Positions 556 through 25,323 of a stretch of DNA of 31,399 nt are shown here, one piece after another; position 1 is the first letter of the stretch, and every line of letters starts with the position of its first letter. Source of the DNA: a virus; the IMG/VR virus record IMGVR_UViG_3300036945_000383, positions 1 to 31,399 of that record; one strand, given 5' to 3'. The notes under the pieces are model-generated. The model saw nothing but the letters and a program-made list of their open reading frames with translations. It did no database searches and had not been told where the DNA came from. A program made the position numbers and the translations under genes.

Positions 556-1656
556 ATGTCAAAAGAACAATACAACCTAAATACAAAAACAGACTACTTG
601 AACCGTAAGATGTTTCTAGACCCAGCTGGCCCTGTAACTATCCAACGATTCGAAGAAGTAAAGTATAAAAAAATTGCCGAGTTTGAAGAAACTGCTCGTG
701 GCTTCTTCTGGCAACCAGAAGAAGTAAGTCTTACTAAAGATAGCAACGATTTCAAAGAAGCAAGCGAAGCTGTCAGACATATCTTTACAAGTAACTTGTT
801 ACGTCAGACAGCACTGGACAGTTTGCAAGGCCGTGGTCCTAGTCAAGTGTTTACTCCTGTAATCAGTTTACCCGAGTTGGAATCATTGGTATACAACTGG
901 ACGTTCTTTGAAACTAACATTCACAGTAAGTCATACAGTCACATTATCCGTAACATCTACAACGTGCCAAAGGATGTGTTTAACACTATCCACGACACGA
1001 AAGAAATCGTCGACATGGCATCGAGTGTCGGTAACTATTACGAAGCATTGCATGTAATCAATTGTCGCAAACAGGTAGGTGAAGTAATTCCGGAAAAGGA
1101 ACATATCAAAGCAATTTGGATGGCACTACATGCAAGTTATGCACTGGAAGCGTTCCGCTTCATGGTATCGTTTGCTACAAGTTTGGCAATGGTCGAGAAC
1201 AAAATCTTCATTGGCAACGGCAACATCATCAGCTTGATTCTTCAAGACGAACTACTACACAAAGGTTGGACTGCTTATTTGATCAATCAAGTGGTCAAAG
1301 AAGATTCACGCTTTGCAGCAATCAAAGCAGAATGTGAAGCAGAAGTATATGCACTGTATCTAGATGTAATTTGCGAAGAAAAGGCATGGGCTAGTTATTT
1401 GTTTAAGATGGGACCGGTCATTGGCCTTAACGCAAACATTCTGCGTGACTTTGTAGACTACACAGCAGTGGGCGCACTCAAAGACATTGGTATCAAATAT
1501 CTAAGTCCTGCACCCAAGAGTACTCCTATCCCTTGGTTCAACAAGCATGTGGACACTAGCAAAAAGCAAACTGCACTGCAAGAAAACGAATCAACCAACT
1601 ATGTAATTGGTGTAATGGGGGATTCAATTGACTATGATGCTTTGCCATCACTATGA
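556..1656 (+). CDS. nrdB: Ribonucleotide reductase class Ia, small (beta) subunit
   Basis: 366 aa, close to the E. coli length of 376. It houses the di-iron/tyrosyl radical cofactor that activates NrdA. Ligand candidates in order are D88 (ALDSLQGR), E119, H123, radical Tyr127 (HSKSY), E198 (ALEAFRF), E232 and H235 (QDELLH). The C-terminal tail keeps ENESTNY, the region of E. coli Glu350/Tyr356 that relays the radical to NrdA. One oddity: the ligand helix reads ETNIHSKSY, one residue longer between the Glu and His ligands than E. coli ETIHSRSY, while all other ligand spacings up to D88-E119 and E198-E232 match. No Shine-Dalgarno is obvious, so expression probably depends on nrdA translation. 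The stop overlaps the next start (ATGA). Confidence 0.97.
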   Translation: MSKEQYNLNTKTDYLNRKMFLDPAGPVTIQRFEEVKYKKIAEFEETARGFFWQPEEVSLTKDSNDFKEASEAVRHIFTSNLLRQTALDSLQGRGPSQVFTPVISLPELESLVYNWTFFETNIHSKSYSHIIRNIYNVPKDVFNTIHDTKEIVDMASSVGNYYEALHVINCRKQVGEVIPEKEHIKAIWMALHASYALEAFRFMVSFATSLAMVENKIFIGNGNIISLILQDELLHKGWTAYLINQVVKEDSRFAAIKAECEAEVYALYLDVICEEKAWASYLFKMGPVIGLNANILRDFVDYTAVGALKDIGIKYLSPAPKSTPIPWFNKHVDTSKKQTALQENESTNYVIGVMGDSIDYDALPSL

Positions 1657-6000: not shown

Positions 6001-6025
6001 CAAGCAGGAAAAACAAGTATATAAT
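5997..6025 (+). promoter_or_regulatory. Consensus sigma-70 promoter for the tmRNA gene
   Basis: TTGACA at 5997-6002, 17-bp spacer, TATAAT at 6020-6025, a full match to the sigma-70 consensus. The -35 box includes the smpB stop codon. The overlapping AATAAATA at 6023-6030 also fits the T4 late-promoter pattern NATAAATA, so the gene could be read both early and late. Expected start is near 6032. Confidence 0.9.
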
Positions 6026-6096
6026 AAATACTTGAACAGCGTAAAGTAGGAACTGAAAAATATTCAAGAACCCGGTTCAAATCCGGGCAGGTCCAC

Positions 6097-6171
6097 CATA
6101 GATACATTGGGGAATAATATAGTCCGTAAGGATGAATGCTGTCCTAGAGACCGTCCAACAATGTATCTATG
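6097..6171 (+). other. Intervening segment hairpin of the permuted tmRNA
   Basis: Perfect 13-bp inverted repeat CATAGATACATTG (6097-6109) / CAATGTATCTATG (6159-6171). Its left arm uses the last two bases of the CCA end and its right arm stops two bases before the 5' end of the coding piece. The helix would bring both processing sites side by side in the precursor before excision. Confidence 0.9.
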
Positions 6172-6282
6172 ATGGGCCTGAACTGGTTATCGATTGGGTA
6201 TTAAGTATGTTATCTATCGCTCGGCAATGTAGAAGCCGTTAGGATTGGGGTAACCTGGTCGCAGAAGCAAAACAAAGTAAAC

Positions 6283-6315
6283 GCAAACGACTCACAGTTC
6301 GCATTAGCTGCCTAA
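6283..6315 (+). other. tmRNA tag reading frame, peptide ANDSQFALAA
   Basis: The frame GCA AAC GAC TCA CAG TTC GCA TTA GCT GCC TAA follows AGTAAAC, as expected upstream of the resume codon. It encodes ANDSQFALAA, with the ...ALAA end recognised by ClpXP-type proteases. The resume codon is GCA (Ala), as in most tmRNAs. Confidence 0.95.
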
Positions 6316-6356
6316 ACTCAGCTTAGGGTAAGACATACCTCGTAACAGAAACTCAA

Positions 6357-6384
6357 GAAAGCACCTTCGGGTGCTTTCATTTTA
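6357..6384 (+). terminator. Rho-independent terminator of the tmRNA gene
   Basis: 9-bp stem GAAAGCACC / GGTGCTTTC closed by a TTCG tetraloop, followed by ATTTTATA. Confidence 0.93.
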
Positions 6385-6403
6385 TAGTCAATTTCTACCT
6401 GTT

Positions 6404-6459
6404 TGTTGCTAAAATACAACATAAAATTGGTTGACACACGGTCCTATTATTGTTATAAT
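6404..6459 (+). promoter_or_regulatory. Operator-promoter module 1
   Basis: Operator TGTTGCTAAAATACAACA at 6404-6421 differs from the perfect palindrome TGTTGTAGAAATACAACA in the centre-left only. Nine bases on is TTGACA (6431-6436), a 17-bp spacer, then TATAAT (6454-6459). It drives the operon from 6481. Confidence 0.85.
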
Positions 6460-6682: not shown

Positions 6683-6895
6683 ATGGCATACTTTTGGAGA
6701 AAAGCAAGAGGCCTTGCAGCCGATGTCGAACGCCATCGTGCAAAAGAAGCTGAACTAGATGCTAAGATAGCAGAGCTAGAGGACAAGCGAGATCCACTAA
6801 GCATTGCTTCATTGCGAGTATATCGTAGATTTCGTGCCCAACTGCTACAAAGCAAGGCTGAAATTGTAAACAAAATTGGCAAGAAAAATGTTTAA
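6683..6895 (+). CDS. Small hypothetical coiled-coil protein
   Basis: 70 aa from the ATG after AAGGAGAG; a longer in-frame reading from 6503 only overlaps the upstream gene. It is highly charged and helical (RHRAKEAELDAKIAELEDKR), consistent with a short coiled coil, and ends in a basic tail IGKKNV. The next gene starts eight bases before its stop. No function can be assigned. Confidence 0.75.
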   Translation: MAYFWRKARGLAADVERHRAKEAELDAKIAELEDKRDPLSIASLRVYRRFRAQLLQSKAEIVNKIGKKNV

Positions 6896-7796
6896 AGACA
6901 AGTTAAAAGAATACGTAGAATCATCTAACCTAGTTAACATGAAAGAAGCTGGGCAAGGTATCTACGTACTCAAATATAAGAAGCGTGTGTTCTATGACAA
7001 CCTATGGAACGAGTACATTGCCGAATGTCGTGGAAGTATTGTGGATGCTGATTTTAACCTAGTGAGCTATCCATTCACAAAGATCTACAACTATGGTATC
7101 GAAAAGGAAGCACCTGTGTTTTCCGAACTTGATACTATCGTAACTGCTTTCCGTAAGGTAAACGGTTTTATGGTAGCAATGACTTGGTACAATGGCGACA
7201 TCTTAGTGTCTACTACCGGGTCAACCGACAGCCCATACGTTGCAATGGCAAAAGAAATGATGTTAATTCATCAATCTTGGGCAGACTGGCAGTTGGCATT
7301 TAACCGCTCAGACATGGACGGAATGACATTTATGTTTGAATGTGTACATCCTGATGACCCACATATTGTACCTGAAAAGCCAGGTATGTATATCTTGGGT
7401 TATCGTGAAAACACTTGGCGGTCAGAAGTGGGTCATGAACCTGCTGTATTAGAGCAACTGGGCGAAACGTTCAAGTGCTTTGTTCCTGAATGCCAGCACT
7501 TGACTGTTATGGCGCTAAAGAACTTGGTCAAGACAGTCAAGCACGAAGGCTTTGTGTTCTATGACGAAGAAGGCGTAGGAGCAAAGATCAAGAGTCCTTA
7601 CTACTTGACTTCAAAGTGGGTAGCACGTAACCCTCGTACAGACAAGCTGGTTGACCTGAACCGGGACATCAAGCAAAACCTAGACGAAGAGTACTATCCA
7701 CTGGTTGACGCTATTCGTGCTAACATTGCAGAATACACTGCCTTGGACGAGCAAGCTCGACTGGCATGGGTGCGTAACTATATGGAGACTGTATGA
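6888..7796 (+). CDS. T4 Rnl1-like RNA ligase
   Basis: 302 aa from ATG 6888 (a TTG 12 bases earlier is also in frame). RNA ligase 1 seals 3'-OH and 5'-phosphate RNA ends through an adenylated lysine. Signatures in order: ECRGSIVD near 46-53, matching T4 Rnl1 ECRGIMF; SYPFTKIYNYG; motif I KVNG with the candidate nucleophile K90 (T4 has KEDG); motif III MTFMFECV; motif IV HEGFVFY; motif V AKIKSPYYL. T4 Rnl1 is 374 aa, so the C-terminal specificity domain is shorter here. With the kinase at 19079 it makes a tRNA-repair pair like T4 Pnk/Rnl1, which counters anticodon nucleases. The stop overlaps the next start (ATGA). Confidence 0.9.
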   Translation: MFKDKLKEYVESSNLVNMKEAGQGIYVLKYKKRVFYDNLWNEYIAECRGSIVDADFNLVSYPFTKIYNYGIEKEAPVFSELDTIVTAFRKVNGFMVAMTWYNGDILVSTTGSTDSPYVAMAKEMMLIHQSWADWQLAFNRSDMDGMTFMFECVHPDDPHIVPEKPGMYILGYRENTWRSEVGHEPAVLEQLGETFKCFVPECQHLTVMALKNLVKTVKHEGFVFYDEEGVGAKIKSPYYLTSKWVARNPRTDKLVDLNRDIKQNLDEEYYPLVDAIRANIAEYTALDEQARLAWVRNYMETV

Positions 7797-16318: not shown

Positions 16319-18415
16319 ATGAAATTTAAACTTAACTCACTTGCTATTGCTCTTGCACTATTATCAAGTTCAATTGCGTTTGGTCAGACCAAAGCACTCA
16401 ACTACGAAGCAAAAGAAATCTCCACTGTACTCAAAGTCGGCGGAGTTAACTATGCATGGGCACGTGGCATCACTGGTAAGGGTGTAACTATTGCAATCCT
16501 TGACAGCGGCTTTGACCTGACACACACTGACTTGTCCGGCAAGATTGTTGCAAGCAAAAACTTCAACTCAACCGTTGCATATCAAAATCCAACTAACCCA
16601 ACAGCAGTGACATGGGGCTATCACGGTACAATGATGGCAGGAATTGCCGCAGGTGCCAACAACGGCACTGGCACAGTTGGTGTTGCACCTGATGCAAAAC
16701 TGTTGCTTGGACAAGTTGGACAAGGTGGTACATCTCCATTGGTCAGTATGGCAGCAGTGGTCAGTGGTGTTGACTGGGCCAGCTCGCTCGGAGCAACTGC
16801 CATTAACTTGAGCCTTGGCTCTACATTTGACCCAACATTCCAAAAGGGCATGGTATTGCTCAATCCTGGTGTAGCCGGGGTATGGAAGGCTCCAGCACTG
16901 TATGGTTCAATGTATGGCCAAAGCAGAGCAACTCTCAATGGCTTGGCAGTGGGTACAAATCGTGGAAGCATTATTGTAGCGGCCGCTGGTAACCAAGGCT
17001 TGCCTTATGCACAGTTTCCAGGCGCATTTGCCACACAAGTTGACAGCACAGGCAAGTTGATTCTTGGCGGCCGTATGTTAATTGTTGGCGCCACAGATGT
17101 TGCTGGCAAAACTATTGCACCATTTTCAAATCGTGCAGGGCACATTTGTACAAACATTGTGGGCACCACATGTAATGATCCGTATCAGGTCAAGGACTTC
17201 TTTGTTGTTGCACCAGGTATGGCAGTGTACGGCTCGACCCCTAATCAAATGGCGATGGGAACAAATGGTTCAATTGGTGTCAACGGAACAAGCCCAGCAA
17301 CAGCCTACGTAACAGGTGGCATTGCATTGATGAAGCAAGCATGGCCACAACTGCGTCCCGAACAGTTGGTTGCACTTACACTTAACACAGCCAAGGACAT
17401 GGGTGCCAAGGGTGTTGACGAAGTGTACGGCCACGGCATGGTAGACTTTGATGCCGCAACACGCCCACAAGGTGCGTTGGTCATTGCAAATAATACCAAG
17501 TTGACTGGTTCAGGTCCGCAAGGCAAAGTGTTGCAACTTCAAGGCACCGGGGTAGTAACAACAGGTGCAGTGAACTTGACAACCAGCTCAGTGCTAAAAA
17601 ATACACAAGTGGTTGACTCCATTGGTCGTAACTATGCAGTGGACTTGACAAAAGCAGTTGGCTATAACAATGCAATGAGTTACCAATATGCCAGTCCTTG
17701 GATGAGTATGGCAGGTGCAAACTACAAGCAGATTGCCAACCCAATTGGCAAGGACGCTACATTGACATTCATGGCAAGTGATGGTGGTGCAGCTTCGCAG
17801 TATGAATGGCAGTATGATGCCAGCACACGCTTGGGCTTTGAAGTTGGAACACTGAGTGAGCAAAAAGGTTTCTTGGGCACACAAGGCGGCGGCGCAATGG
17901 AATTTGGTGGCTCTAGTACTGTATGGTCAGGTGCTAACTTTAGTCATAACATTGCTCATAACACTGCACTGATTGGTAGCTACACAATGGGTATGACTCG
18001 AACTAACAATGCAGCCAACAGCATGGTGCAACTTGGATCTACTGTACTTGCAGACTCGTGGAAGATTGGTGTAGCCAAGAGCAATATTTTGTTTGCTGGT
18101 AAGACCAAAGACACATTGAGCTTTGCAGTGGCTACTCCGGTAGCAGTGCGCTCAGGTCATGCAACTGTGACTGGTGTAACAGGTTACACTTACACTGACA
18201 ATGAAGATGGTACAACAGATGCAAATCCAGTAACACAAAGTGAACGAGTAAGCCTGGCACCTAAAGTACGTGAAATGGATTTGGTCCTTGGTTACACTGT
18301 AAGTCATAGCAACACTTCGATAATTGGTGTTAACTTGGTCAAGCAGTTTAACGTAAGTGGGCAGTCGGGTGTACAAGGTTACGGTGTGTCTATAATGGCA
18401 CGTAGCATGTTCTAA
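16319..18415 (+). CDS. Secreted subtilisin-like (S8) serine protease with probable outer-membrane C-terminal domain
   Basis: 698 aa. Signal peptide at 1-22 (KLNSLAIALALLSSSIAFG). S8 catalytic triad: D62 in AILDSGFD, H102 in YHGTMMAG, S325 in GTSPATAY; oxyanion Asn225 in AAAGNQG. The protease domain ends near residue 385. The remaining about 310 residues are rich in short amphipathic strands and finish YGVSIMARSMF with a terminal Phe, as in autotransporter or other outer-membrane barrels. Length and order match bacterial S8 autotransporters (NalP/SphB1 type). Such an enzyme is very unusual in a phage. It may cleave surface proteins, receptors or matrix. Its own promoter and terminator make it a single-gene insert; base use does not look strikingly different from its neighbours. 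Confidence 0.88.
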   Translation: MKFKLNSLAIALALLSSSIAFGQTKALNYEAKEISTVLKVGGVNYAWARGITGKGVTIAILDSGFDLTHTDLSGKIVASKNFNSTVAYQNPTNPTAVTWGYHGTMMAGIAAGANNGTGTVGVAPDAKLLLGQVGQGGTSPLVSMAAVVSGVDWASSLGATAINLSLGSTFDPTFQKGMVLLNPGVAGVWKAPALYGSMYGQSRATLNGLAVGTNRGSIIVAAAGNQGLPYAQFPGAFATQVDSTGKLILGGRMLIVGATDVAGKTIAPFSNRAGHICTNIVGTTCNDPYQVKDFFVVAPGMAVYGSTPNQMAMGTNGSIGVNGTSPATAYVTGGIALMKQAWPQLRPEQLVALTLNTAKDMGAKGVDEVYGHGMVDFDAATRPQGALVIANNTKLTGSGPQGKVLQLQGTGVVTTGAVNLTTSSVLKNTQVVDSIGRNYAVDLTKAVGYNNAMSYQYASPWMSMAGANYKQIANPIGKDATLTFMASDGGAASQYEWQYDASTRLGFEVGTLSEQKGFLGTQGGGAMEFGGSSTVWSGANFSHNIAHNTALIGSYTMGMTRTNNAANSMVQLGSTVLADSWKIGVAKSNILFAGKTKDTLSFAVATPVAVRSGHATVTGVTGYTYTDNEDGTTDANPVTQSERVSLAPKVREMDLVLGYTVSHSNTSIIGVNLVKQFNVSGQSGVQGYGVSIMARSMF

Positions 18416-20022: not shown

Positions 20023-20730
20023 ATGCCACTAGTAGAACAATATCCAAACTGGGTCATGTTAGACCCAGTTCTTCATTATAAGCCGTTAGCAGACTACTTC
20101 TTTGCCAACAAGGATATTTGGCAGTCAAGGCCAACTGACAGTTTCTTTGCTGAATGTAGCTGGTACAAGTTTCCGTATTGTTGTCATGTTCCATGGTACC
20201 AAAGCTTAAATACACCCTCAACCATTGGCCAATCACAATCTGAAATTTACAAATTGGCTGCACCCATTTTCAATCAAGCAAATCAGCAACTTGGTTCAGA
20301 GTATGTACTTTGGGGCGCAGAGCTTAATTCAGTGCCGCCGGGTTGTACAATTGCCCCGCACACCGACAAGCATTTTTATTCTGATTATACCACACGAATT
20401 CATGCAGTACTTAAAACCAACAGCAATGTAGTCTTTAATTTTGACAGCGGTTCCTATCATTTTGCAGAAGGTCAATGCTTTATCTTTAATAACAAACTAC
20501 GACATGCTATTCAAAATAATGGTAGCAATGATCGCTTGCACTTGGTCATGGACTTTGTTCCAGTTGAAATTTTTAAGTATACAGAAAGAAGCATTGCACC
20601 CTTTGGCGGTCATGGAGCACGTCACATACTTGCTAACTTGGACAAGGGCAGTGTTGACTATGGCACATACATTAAAATGTCCGGTAATCAAGCGTACCCT
20701 TTTCTCACAGTAAAGGAACTGTCCAAATGA
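20023..20730 (+). CDS. 2OG-Fe(II) oxygenase, aspartyl/asparaginyl beta-hydroxylase-like
   Basis: 235 aa. Iron ligands H113-x-D115 (APHTDKH) and H161 (KLRHAIQN), with R171 (NDRLHLVMDF) as the 2-oxoglutarate binder, in the order and spacing of the Asp/Asn hydroxylase family. The N-terminal 100 residues contain aromatic and cysteine-rich stretches (WYKFPYCCHVPWYQ). Such enzymes hydroxylate side chains of proteins or small metabolites. Three other proteins in this window (20727, 29218, 29868 minus) show the same HxD...H pattern. Substrate unknown. Start is three bases after the previous stop; end overlaps the next gene. Confidence 0.82.
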   Translation: MPLVEQYPNWVMLDPVLHYKPLADYFFANKDIWQSRPTDSFFAECSWYKFPYCCHVPWYQSLNTPSTIGQSQSEIYKLAAPIFNQANQQLGSEYVLWGAELNSVPPGCTIAPHTDKHFYSDYTTRIHAVLKTNSNVVFNFDSGSYHFAEGQCFIFNNKLRHAIQNNGSNDRLHLVMDFVPVEIFKYTERSIAPFGGHGARHILANLDKGSVDYGTYIKMSGNQAYPFLTVKELSK

Positions 20731-21751: not shown

Positions 21752-21816
21752 TGTTGTAGAAATACAACAAAGAAATTTAAAAAAGTATTGACAAGATGAC
21801 GTAATAGTCGTATAAT
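21752..21816 (+). promoter_or_regulatory. Operator-promoter module 5 (tandem copy)
   Basis: Identical palindrome TGTTGTAGAAATACAACA at 21752-21769, 18 bases, TTGACA (21788-21793), 17-bp spacer, TATAAT (21811-21816). It resembles module 4 over about 70 bp, so the two look like a duplication. Confidence 0.9.
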
Positions 21817-21826
21817 TGATACTTAA

Positions 21827-21931
21827 ACAGCAACAGACCATCGTGTTAGTTGCTTAATTGTTCATTAACAATACAGTGACATTTTCAACGCAGAAGCAAG
21901 AACAGACTTGTCTTAGTATTGCTTCTGCGTT
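21827..21931 (+). ncRNA. Structured leader RNA between module 5 and tRNA-Glu
   Basis: Three successive hairpins without an open frame: GCAAC...GTTGC (from 21829), ATTGTT-CATT-AACAAT (near 21857-21872), and a perfect 13-bp stem AACGCAGAAGCAA (21887-21899) / TTGCTTCTGCGTT (21919-21931) that ends three bases before tRNA-Glu. It could be a processing element, an attenuator or a small stable RNA. Confidence 0.55.
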
Positions 21932-21934
21932 TAT

Positions 21935-22009
21935 ACTCGATTCGTCTATCGGTTAGGACATTTGGTTTTCAACCAAAGAAGAGCGGTTCAACTCCGCTAT
22001 CGAGTACCA
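21935..22009 (+). tRNA. tRNA-Glu(TTC), first copy
   Basis: 75 nt. Acceptor ACTCGAT / ATCGAGT, anticodon stem-loop TTTGG-TTTTCAA-CCAAA, T arm AGCGG-TTCAACT-CCGCT, discriminator A, CCA encoded. The CCA is the start of an 11-bp inverted repeat that closes the following spacer. Confidence 0.94.
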
Positions 22010-22096
22010 TATCGAAATGCATTAGATTTCTTTTAGCCTGCCCCCTGCACTTGTGCCCCTGGTGGACTAGATTCCTTTTAGTGTGTTTCGATATGG
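22007..22096 (+). ncRNA. Structured tRNA spacer S1
   Basis: CCATATCGAAA (22007-22017) pairs perfectly with TTTCGATATGG (22086-22096). Inside lies a direct repeat TAGATT(T/C)CTTTTAG and CTGCCCCC (22038-22045), which is complementary to the first eight bases of the next tRNA. The layout resembles the intervening hairpin of the permuted tmRNA. Confidence 0.55.
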
Positions 22097-22100
22097 TAAT

Positions 22101-22335: not shown

Positions 22336-22722
22336 ATGGAATCAGTTTGTAAGAATTGTAACAAGATTTTTGCGTTTAGCAAACAAGGAAAAGTTAAAGG
22401 GGTCTATTGCGGTCTAGAATGCACATTCGAAGATCAACGTAGACAGCGTAGACAAAACTTCCTTGAAGGTAAAGTAAGTAACAGAGGGAATATCAAAAAA
22501 CATTTAGTTGACATAAACGGTTGGCAATGTGTTTGTTGTAAGACAACTGAATGGCAAGGAAAACCAGTGCCACTTGAAGTTGATCACATAGATGGAAATG
22601 CAGGCGATAATACTCCTGCAAATTTAAGATTACTATGTCCCAATTGTCATGCACAGACACCTACGCATAAAGCAAAGAATAAAGGAAACGGAAGAGGCAG
22701 CAGAGGGCTTCCGTGGAGTTAA
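22336..22722 (+). CDS. HNH endonuclease in the tRNA array
   Basis: 128 aa. HNH core: GWQCVCCK with CxxC, then LEVDHIDGNAGDNTPANLRLLCPNCHAQT (given in part: VDHIDGN, NLRLLCPNCHAQ), which carries the DH, N and CxxC/H positions. An additional N-terminal zinc finger is visible (CKNCNKIF...YCGLEC). Free-standing HNH genes are common homing endonucleases in T4-like phages and often sit in tRNA clusters; self-spread is the likely role. The gene divides tRNA-Leu from tRNA-Ile and has its own late-type leader. Basic C-terminus (KAKNKGNGRGSRG). Confidence 0.92.
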   Translation: MESVCKNCNKIFAFSKQGKVKGVYCGLECTFEDQRRQRRQNFLEGKVSNRGNIKKHLVDINGWQCVCCKTTEWQGKPVPLEVDHIDGNAGDNTPANLRLLCPNCHAQTPTHKAKNKGNGRGSRGLPWS

Positions 22723-23660: not shown

Positions 23661-23736
<76 letters not shown>

Positions 23737-23739
23737 AGT

Positions 23740-23792
23740 TTAAGAGTTCGTCTAGAAACCGGTAAATTGTAGTTTGGTCTACAAGCTCTTAA
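23740..23792 (+). ncRNA. Structured tRNA spacer S7
   Basis: TTAAGAG (23740-23746) pairs with CTCTTAA (23786-23792); inside is the perfect hairpin TTGTAG-TTTGGT-CTACAA (23767-23784). Followed by ATTATTTT, so it might also act as a terminator ahead of the next promoter. Confidence 0.48.
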
Positions 23793-23808
23793 TTATTTTA
23801 AAAAGTTG

Positions 23809-23837
23809 TTGACAAGCGATAAAAAGTTTGCTACAAT
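23809..23837 (+). promoter_or_regulatory. Sigma-70 promoter of the large RNA unit
   Basis: TTGACA (23809-23814), 17-bp spacer, TACAAT (23832-23837). The transcript should begin near 23844 with the hairpin GTTAA-GAAA-TTAAC and then enter tRNA-Ser and the large RNA. Confidence 0.88.
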
Positions 23838-23902
23838 AGATACATGTTAAGAAATTAACAAACGTTCATTAAAAATTTATGTATAAGAGTTCTTATACAC
23901 AT

Positions 23903-23992
23903 ACGCACTGCGGCTGAGGCTAGGTCGTTATGTGGAACATAGCTGGGCCCGAATTCGAGCTTGGTCACCAGTTCGATTCTGGTAAGTGTGTA
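23903..23992 (+). tRNA. tRNA-Ser(GGA) without encoded CCA
   Basis: About 90 nt, class II. Acceptor ACGCACT / AGTGTGT, D stem CGGC/GTCG, anticodon stem-loop GTTAT-GTGGAAC-ATAGC, long variable arm, T arm ACCAG-TTCGATT-CTGGT. CCA is not encoded (TAGTTG follows). The acceptor is extended by a perfect 10-bp clamp TTCTTATACA (23890-23899) / TGTATAAGAA (23995-24004). It sits at the 5' end of the large structured RNA and may be part of it. Confidence 0.78.
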
Positions 23993-24004
23993 GTTGTATA
24001 AGAA

Positions 24005-25040
24005 TTTAAGGGTGGTTTAACATCCTGTAGGCGGCTTGCTGTCTACGAAGAATAACTGTGGTGACACAGCCAAAGGAGGTATGCCTACATAACTCCGCTA
24101 GAAATAGTTCATTTAGACAAGCCTGCTTGGTACCGTGAGGTACGCTTCGTTGATAAGACCGGCGGAGATAACAGCAAAGCTGATAGTAGTGGAAAGAACG
24201 TGTGCTCAAGCGCCGCAAGGTAACGCAAGTGCATGGAAAGGAAACAGGTGGTGCTGTCCTTCACTGCAAAACCAATCAGTTAGCTGGTACAAGAAAGGGT
24301 AGTGTATTGGTTCAAAGGGTCGCTCCTAAGAGCTGGTATGCAGTTTGAGTGGTTGGTGGTTGCGTTGTGAAACGCGGACATTGATCGCAAAAGACGACTG
24401 AGTAGCTCGCGAGGCAAAAGGTACGTGGTGTGTTGTATTGTGTAGAGCAAAACTTTATGCAGCAACTGAGTCAGCACATCGCAGTAGGTTGATATAGCTC
24501 ATTGTAGAGCAATTCCCTGTTAAGGAATAGGCTGTGGCTTCAAAACCACTATCTAACAAAAATGCAAAGACTGACTCGGTCATATGTGAAAAGCATCTAA
24601 TACTTGACACGCAAGTGAATCAAGTCCAACGTAACTCGCAAGGTGAAATTGGTTTATGCAGGAAGTTTCGTAAGGTGTTAGCGCACTTGAATGGCTCGCA
24701 AGGTCAACGGGATAGAAAGCGTAGAATAGCATATGGCGACAAGACTAGTGCCTGTCTTTAAAAACGGCGATGCTGATAGCAGACTATGATACATAGCAAT
24801 ATGGTTGTAGTGGAAATCAAGAGAAGGTATGCTCGCAAGGCGTACTATAATGCTTGAGGTGCTATTGGGAGAGATGTATTCTCAGTCCTCCACTATTCTA
24901 AAGCACATTACGAGTCCATGCCTCTTCCGCAAATAAGGAAGGATAGTGTGTTTCAGAATAGAAAGATACATTAAAGTGTGACTGCGTCATTGGCAACAGT
25001 GAGAGGCCTACTAAAGCTGTAGGACATTAGTGTGTTTTAA
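24005..25040 (+). ncRNA. Very large structured RNA, GOLLD/ROOL-like
   Basis: About 1.04 kb without a credible gene (about 1.2 kb if the tRNA-Ser domain and leader from 23844 are included). It is packed with GNRA-capped hairpins: CTGTG-GTGA-CACAG (24056), GTACC-GTGA-GGTAC (24130), GCGTT-GTGA-AACGC (24362), CAC-GCAA-GTG inside CTTGA/TCAAG (24603), and four copies of a bulged motif CTC-GNRA-GG at 24406, 24635, 24695 and 24832. Longer-range pairs include GTAGGC/GCCTAC (24027/24083), CTCCGC/GCGGAG (24093/24162), ACCAAT/ATTGGT (24271/24306), TAGTGGA/TCCACTA (24808/24889) and CCTAC/GTAGG (25007/25019). Known giant RNAs of phages and prophages next to tRNA genes are GOLLD and ROOL; GOLLD was first seen in lake DNA and can contain a tRNA. 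Family membership is inference; no consensus could be checked here. Confidence 0.75.
24488..24557 (+). tRNA. tRNA-Asn(GTT)-like domain inside the large RNA
   Basis: GTTGATA pairs with TATC-T-AAC with one bulged T; D arm GCTCATTGTAGAGC; anticodon stem-loop ATTCC-CTGTTAA-GGAAT; T-like arm GTGG-CTTCAAAA-CCAC. No CCA. It may be a functional tRNA released from the RNA, or a tRNA-shaped structural domain. Confidence 0.6.
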
Positions 25041-25047
25041 ATTATAT

Positions 25048-25121
25048 GCGGGTAAGCTCGAGGTGAGACGCCAGCCTTCCAAGCTGCGCTGAGTGGAGTT
25101 CGATTCTCCCTACCCGCTCCA
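25048..25121 (+). tRNA. tRNA-Gly(TCC)
   Basis: 74 nt. Acceptor GCGGGTA / TACCCGC, anticodon stem-loop CCAGC-CTTCCAA-GCTGC (outer C-C mismatch), T arm GGAG-TTCGATT-CTCC, discriminator T, CCA encoded. The D arm (GCTCGAGGTGAGAC) is slightly irregular. Confidence 0.9.
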
Positions 25122-25140
25122 TTAACAATAGGAGCAAAAG

Positions 25141-25323
25141 ATGAGTCATGGTGGTAAAGGCGATACACCTCGCCCATTTAGTGTTTCTCCGGAAGAGTTT
25201 GGTAGTAGACACGAAGCTATATTTGGCAAGAAACCAGCCAGAGTTCCTTATGTGTATGTGCCATCTAAAAATGATTATGAGCCACCTGAAACTGATGTAC
25301 GAGACTCAGAGCAAGGTGGCTAA
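25141..25323 (+). CDS. Small conserved phage protein in the tRNA array
   Basis: 60 aa; AGGAGC lies nine bases before the ATG. Begins MSHGGKGDTPRPFSVSPEEFG, a sequence start seen in many small phage proteins of unknown role, and ends with an acidic, disordered tail (DYEPPETDVRDSEQGG). It is interposed between tRNA-Gly and tRNA-Val, so translation and tRNA processing share a transcript. Confidence 0.78.
   Translation: MSHGGKGDTPRPFSVSPEEFGSRHEAIFGKKPARVPYVYVPSKNDYEPPETDVRDSEQGG

Follow-up and report, generated by a model that had tools for sequence, protein, structure and literature searches.

A phage-encoded GOLLD RNA with a linker pseudo-tRNA and an rRNA-operon-like leader

The GOLLD locus within a phage tRNA array

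The window, that is, the whole 31,399-nucleotide stretch of viral DNA analysed here, includes a tRNA array with more than 1 kb that lacks any gene: no open reading frame above 75 aa is present in 23737-25140, and ARAGORN calls no tRNA between the same positions (Table 1). The earlier note, made from the sequence alone, had called attention to this gap and named it a GOLLD or ROOL candidate, or a new giant RNA should neither family fit, to be searched with the Rfam models of both. In that search, Rfam GOLLD (RF02032) matched 24425-24888 over the full model (positions 1-416 of 416) with 206.8 bits against a cut-off of 150 (E = 2.7e-57), and no Rfam match to ROOL was obtained in 23700-25200 even at E up to 1. 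The GOLLD assignment was therefore borne out, and the ROOL and new-family alternatives were dropped. ROOL is also a giant phage RNA found near tRNAs, and it too forms a cage, so that the setting of the locus is comparable; nevertheless, its sequence is unrelated, and given the full-length match to RF02032, neither ROOL nor a hitherto undescribed giant RNA family retains any appreciable probability. Judged from its sequence, the feature is a phage-encoded GOLLD RNA about 950 nt long, which lies within a phage tRNA array and has tRNAs on both sides, as in most of its relatives.

Table 1. Features of the GOLLD unit and other features of the window
Feature	Position	Strand	Basis or remark
Ribonucleotide reductase small subunit	556-1656	+	
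Permuted (two-piece) tmRNA	6006-6406	+	Rfam tmRNA_permuted 93.1 bits, beta_tmRNA 88.4 bits
T4 Rnl1-type RNA ligase gene	6876-7796	+	Pfam PF09511, E = 2e-11
Subtilase	16319-18415	+	
Aspartyl/asparaginyl hydroxylase domain protein	20023-20730	+	
Second promoter and boxA-like leader, before tRNA-Glu of the array	21788-21870	+	GTTCATTAACA at 21860
Hairpin in tRNA-Glu/tRNA-Leu spacer	22005-22098	+	21-bp helix, variable loop (..CATTA/TAGTGTGT..)
HNH endonuclease gene inside the tRNA array	22336-22722	+	
Sigma70-type promoter of GOLLD unit, TTGACA-17-TACAAT	23809-23837	+	Sequence, regex scan, relatives
boxB-like hairpin GTTAAGAAATTAAC, just past predicted start	23846-23859	+	Homologous leaders, rrnB position
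boxA-like element GTTCATTAAAA	23864-23874	+	One mismatch to GYTCTTTAANA
Leader helix, 5' strand	23887-23899	+	13 bp with 23995-24007; alternative local pairing with 23882-23888
Ser-like (type II) tRNA-like domain, payload of 5' module	23903-23991	+	Read from sequence; loop GTGGAAC, no CCA
Leader helix, 3' strand, ending where GOLLD begins	23995-24007	+	Pairing with 23887-23899
GOLLD 5' domain (cap domain of cage by homology)	24008-24424	+	Profile matches, covarying helices
GOLLD conserved 3' domain	24425-24892	+	Rfam match 24425-24888
Pseudo-tRNA in GOLLD linker	24488-24558	+	Rfam tRNA 51.7 bits; in linker columns of the model
3'-terminal hairpin, 17 bp with one mismatch, 33-nt variable loop	24893-24961	+	Beyond Rfam model
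Possible old cassette, about 70 nt, outside the hairpin	24968-25037	+	Resembles 3' payload of L034, L035, L076, L112
tRNA-Gly(TCC)-like gene	25048-25118	+	Missed by ARAGORN; Rfam tRNA 27.6 bits, just below cut-off

Relatives were gathered by scanning viral contigs with a degenerate pattern of the GOLLD 3' domain, which yielded 112 stretches. The GOLLD cut-off was passed by 12 of the 13 viral relatives tested, the remaining one being narrowly below it. Two bacterial/archaeal matches to the pattern (L115 and L116) were rejected as chance, those genomes being without GOLLD. An unannotated GOLLD of 179.2 bits was found in the tRNA array of an isolated phage, Xanthomonas phage X1 (L002:3904-4333; OQ427096.1, 138361-138790), a relative that can be grown in the laboratory.

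The span first proposed for the RNA, 23844-25040, does contain it but is too wide, the conserved RNA occupying about 24008-24961. Conservation extends from about 24000 to 24911 and drops on both sides; 23844-24007 is leader, and 24962-25040 lies outside the conserved RNA. A profile of the 5' domain matched 105 of 117 loci, and the misses were contig ends, one distant member (L011) and the two chance bacterial/archaeal loci. This domain of about 420 nt is common to the clade and less conserved, with mere fragments recognised in the distant GOLLDs of X1, L031 and L044, in agreement with the known pattern of a conserved 3' domain and a divergent 5' domain (PMC12286853). Within 23844-25040, we counted nine GNRA hairpins closed by at least 3 bp (dinucleotide-shuffle mean 3.1, maximum 9 in 300 shuffles) and seven closed by at least 4 bp (shuffle mean 1.2, maximum 6), in line with the eight or more reported in the earlier note. 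Its four copies of the motif CTC-GNRA-GG were likewise found, at 24406, 24635, 24695 and 24832, with just one more elsewhere in the window.

The region, in which the earlier note had described many perfect local and long-range stems, has a covarying structure. In an alignment of 59 non-redundant homologues (A1), RNAalifold predicted 266 pairs in a structured core at about 24000-24911. An independent count in the same homologues found 96.7% of cells paired, against 35-39% when partners were slid by 1-3 columns; compensatory change on both sides was present in 179 of the 266 pairs (66-88 with partners slid), and double-change cells numbered 2250 (177-293 with partners slid). Because the pairs were both predicted and counted on one alignment, the comparison with slid partners is tilted somewhat in their favour, yet the difference is very large, and no shuffle attained the observed covariation values. 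Covariation among relatives, whose absence had been set beforehand as a reason to abandon the idea, is thus strongly present. Thermodynamic folding alone would not have revealed the structure, its signal being weak (z = -1.9, 20 shuffles). A possible helix joining the two ends of the core (AGAAT with ATTCT) is not claimed here, as the variation in the alignment gave it no clear support.

The boxB-boxA leader and its relatives

The RNA has its own consensus promoter, as previously proposed, and the position of this promoter predicts a start near 23844. Many relatives have a near-identical promoter, placed about as far upstream of the core. In the window, the promoter is followed by a small hairpin that directly precedes a boxA-like element, as in rrn-type leaders, and this layout is that of the E. 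coli rrnB antitermination leader, which reads CGCTGAGAAAAAGCG ... GCTCTTTAACA, the order being again hairpin then boxA. Antitermination itself we infer from this arrangement. Both boxA copies of the window have GTTCATT where the consensus form has GTTCTTT, and they are regarded as candidate boxA elements. In relatives, boxA is mostly GTTCTTTAAAAA, preceded by a variable hairpin, and in most of them it matches exactly the published consensus GYTCTTTAANA (PMC5725501). The hairpin ahead of boxA was more stable than 95% of shuffles in 29 of 38 unique homologous leaders, and its stem sequences differ among relatives. As for the host, the type of the permuted tmRNA of the window suggests a betaproteobacterium; ARAGORN reads the tag of this phage tmRNA as ANDSQFALAA.

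The general order of promoter, hairpin, boxA and then a long helix is shared with rRNA-operon leaders (boxB-boxA-boxC; PMC10250234, PMC5725501). Unlike these, the leader described here is phage-borne, stands before GOLLD or tRNAs, has one mismatch in the boxA of the window, and possesses a helix that encloses a short 5' module rather than the whole RNA. In relatives, enclosing helices of 13-26 bp with other sequences surround a variable 5' module located after boxA. The payload of this module in the window is the Ser-like domain, which the earlier note had described, together with an inner Asn-like one, as one of two tRNA domains. The inner domain was confirmed by its Rfam tRNA score; the Ser-like one was called by neither ARAGORN nor Rfam, yet homologous tRNA-like 5' modules are present in L005, L086, L058, L019, L049 and others, the domain being likewise Ser-like and devoid of CCA in several relatives.

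Upstream of the core, boxA is strongly concentrated: its density is 1.34/kb in the 450 nt preceding the core and 0.047/kb elsewhere in the loci, a 28-fold difference. Up to 800 nt upstream of the core there are 49 unique boxA-pattern sites, 43 of them with a promoter, and over 1.07 Mb the unique boxA sites number 74 on the plus strand versus 2 on the minus strand. These leaders are in part related by descent. A promoter-boxA pair within 450 nt is missing in 28 of 57 aligned loci, about half, and in some loci the promoter lies directly at the GOLLD 5' end, with no boxA; promoters placed for a start at that end were seen in L014, L023, L047, L052 and L101.

Such leaders are also found in viral tRNA arrays. 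A blind scan of all viral contigs for a promoter followed by boxA gave at least 120 stretches; the control with a reversed boxA gave 3. Of the 95 unique new sites among the matches listed, 82 are accompanied within 3 kb by at least two tRNAs on the same strand, and 39 precede a tRNA by 25-34 nt; tRNAs on the opposite strand were absent from the loci of all 95. Also among the matches listed, 11 loci have boxA but no tRNA or GOLLD; no giant RNA family was found in them, and in one of them Rfam tRNAs are present at a greater distance. In Xanthomonas phage X1, the sole strict boxA of 200 kb is located 28 nt before the first array tRNA. Over whole phage records, strict boxA gave 28 matches against 32 for the reversed control, and the enrichment is therefore positional, as are all claims made here on boxA. 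In the literature searched, we found no description of phage tRNA arrays preceded by boxA leaders; the word "boxa" in a Stenotrophomonas phage paper refers to a PCR primer.

The linker pseudo-tRNA and the 3'-terminal hairpin

A tRNA-like domain was recognised by a strict parse in 66 of 76 unique linkers, and is missing in some members (L006, L078, L083 and L105). The stems of its D, anticodon and T arms are preserved and covary (helices 32-34). The acceptor end presents a different picture: 42 of the 66 domains have only 4-5 contiguous acceptor pairs, seven have all 7 positions paired, and none encodes CCA, versus 1066 of 1107 array tRNAs (96%). A functional tRNA would have a 7-bp acceptor stem and a 3' CCA; in the window, the acceptor stem is bulged and CCA is lacking. 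The window copy, which ARAGORN does not call, has the anticodon loop CUGUUAA (Asn GUU) and is further decayed than its relatives, the GG of the D-loop being gone.

The anticodon loop reads CUNUUAA in 57 of 62 linker domains. When changes were mapped on a tree from which the linker had been left out, position 34 showed at least 16, positions 35-36 four, position 37 one, and positions 33 and 38 none; for the stem positions we counted 2-16 changes, with four of the five showing 11-16. From these data, the linker tRNA is recognisable as a near-universal pseudo-tRNA across the clade, and the pattern is most readily explained by selection acting on an NUU anticodon loop that has no acceptor end. A pseudo-tRNA has also been predicted inside the GOLLD of Mycobacterium aubagnense, which belongs to a tRNA cluster that, like the array of the window, contains an HNH endonuclease gene (PMC6582537); that is a single case, whereas here the pseudo-tRNA extends across a clade with conservation of its loop.

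The 3' end of the RNA is formed by a hairpin whose helix, about 14-22 bp long in the homologues, was significant against shuffles (P <= 0.05) in 53 of 59. Its outer strands occur in 11 different complementary versions, and its loops, of about 22-99 nt, are unrelated among members. L097, whose core is 79% identical, has the loop of the window with 2 of 35 bases changed; this loop is not found in the closest relative, L005 (core 87% identical). As the sequences indicate, loops of the 3' hairpin are exchanged between lineages. Hairpin cassettes of this type occur in the loci 92 times on the plus strand and 11 times on the minus strand (547 kb), and the hairpin in the tRNA-Glu/tRNA-Leu spacer of the window is built in the same way.

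Possible production and role of the RNA

The GOLLD of the window resembles env-38 (RF02032, PMC12286853) in its full-length 3'-domain match, its separate 5' domain of about 420 nt, its location in a phage tRNA array and its variable linker able to hold a tRNA. Rfam GOLLD models the 3' part only, and the tie of the 5' domain to env-38 is by homology. The linker of env-38 is disordered and located in the interior of a 14-mer cage, and tRNAs are described as "sometimes present" in it (PMC12286853). What seems to differ from env-38, and to be new beyond GOLLD membership, is the rRNA-like leader with the rrnB layout, the near-universal NUU-type pseudo-tRNA of the clade and the covarying 3'-terminal hairpin with exchangeable loops, beyond the Rfam model.

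Starting from the features established at the level of sequence (GOLLD membership, covariation of the 5' and 3' domains, the pseudo-tRNA, the 3' hairpin and the leader elements), we propose that the locus encodes a GOLLD cage RNA made through host rRNA-type antitermination, with tRNA-like arms in the lumen, a reading to which we give a probability of about 60%. Host RNA polymerase would start at about 23844, and the boxB-boxA leader would load NusB-S10 and partners, as on rRNA operons. With the antitermination complex, the long untranslated RNA could escape Rho and fold while being transcribed. Cutting of the leader helix, for which RNase III is the obvious candidate, would then free the GOLLD 5' end, and the RNA would assemble, by homology with env-38, as a 14-mer cage with the linker in its lumen. 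Each cage may therefore hold up to 14 tRNA-shaped, unchargeable arms. On rRNA operons, boxA is indispensable to the antitermination complex and suffices for it, and it also helps the transcript to fold and to attain its quality (PMC10250234); an untranslated RNA of 1 kb with both folding and assembly ahead of it would have the same needs as rRNA.

This proposal has to be weighed against other readings of the same elements. One is that the boxA-like element belongs to an extended promoter or is another protein site rather than an antitermination signal, which would fit its distance of 40-115 nt from promoters and the departure of the window copy from the consensus. We find this doubtful, though well worth considering, since most relatives match the published consensus, a hairpin stands ahead of boxA as in rrnB, and the elements are placed before long untranslated RNA units. 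A broader objection, which we also rate as unlikely but deserving of attention, is that this is an ordinary GOLLD whose linker tRNA and leader are incidental leftovers of a recombining tRNA array, without any role. In fact, GOLLD near or with tRNAs was already known (PMC12286853, PMC6582537), the anticodon identity switches often, and four of the loci named above are without a linker tRNA. Nevertheless, decaying tRNAs would lose their loops first, and here positions 33 and 35-38 are kept while the stems covary; moreover, the boxA leaders are strand-specific and positioned.

The linker tRNA could instead be functional, being excised and receiving its CCA after transcription, with GOLLD as a carrier precursor. 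The canonical D, anticodon and T arms of the 66 linkers and the fully paired acceptor of seven of them would suit such a role, but the shortened acceptors of 42 domains, the lack of CCA in all 66 when nearly all array tRNAs encode it, and the bulged acceptor and missing D-loop GG of the window copy speak against it. Additionally, no expression was detected for the pseudo-tRNA inside the Mycobacterium GOLLD (PMC6582537). We consider a functional linker tRNA very improbable.

If the antitermination reading is correct and the boxA leaders are functional, they would explain how long untranslated phage RNAs are made despite Rho, would extend rRNA-type antitermination to phage tRNA arrays, and would suggest that GOLLD, like rRNA, uses the antitermination complex to fold during transcription. 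This provides a testable idea of how GOLLD RNAs and phage tRNA arrays are produced. To our knowledge, the function of GOLLD has been an open question since 2009. A clade of more than 100 members with a conserved, presumably lumenal anticodon loop narrows it to which factor reads a CUNUUAA arm. The leading idea, advanced here very tentatively, is that the arms bind or sequester a factor that recognises NUU-type (Lys/Asn) anticodon arms; the conservation of the loop is what suggests such a decoy. Joined together, these readings would have phage GOLLD and whole tRNA arrays transcribed as rRNA-like operons by means of the host boxB-boxA machinery, and the cages of this clade carrying an RNA cargo, namely an unchargeable lumenal tRNA mimic, constrained to NUU anticodons, that would trap host factors directed against tRNA, plus exchangeable end hairpin cassettes. 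In this full form the scheme is speculative, and we would not expect all of it to hold. It speaks against the decoy idea that the GOLLD of L. brevis is reported to be dispensable for phage production (PMC7567579, citing the original work).

The window also carries a gene for an Rnl1-type RNA ligase. In T4, the ligase of this type repairs tRNA-Lys(UUU) cut by PrrC, a host anticodon nuclease (PMC10264068), which makes a link of GOLLD to tRNA-targeting defence at most thinkable.
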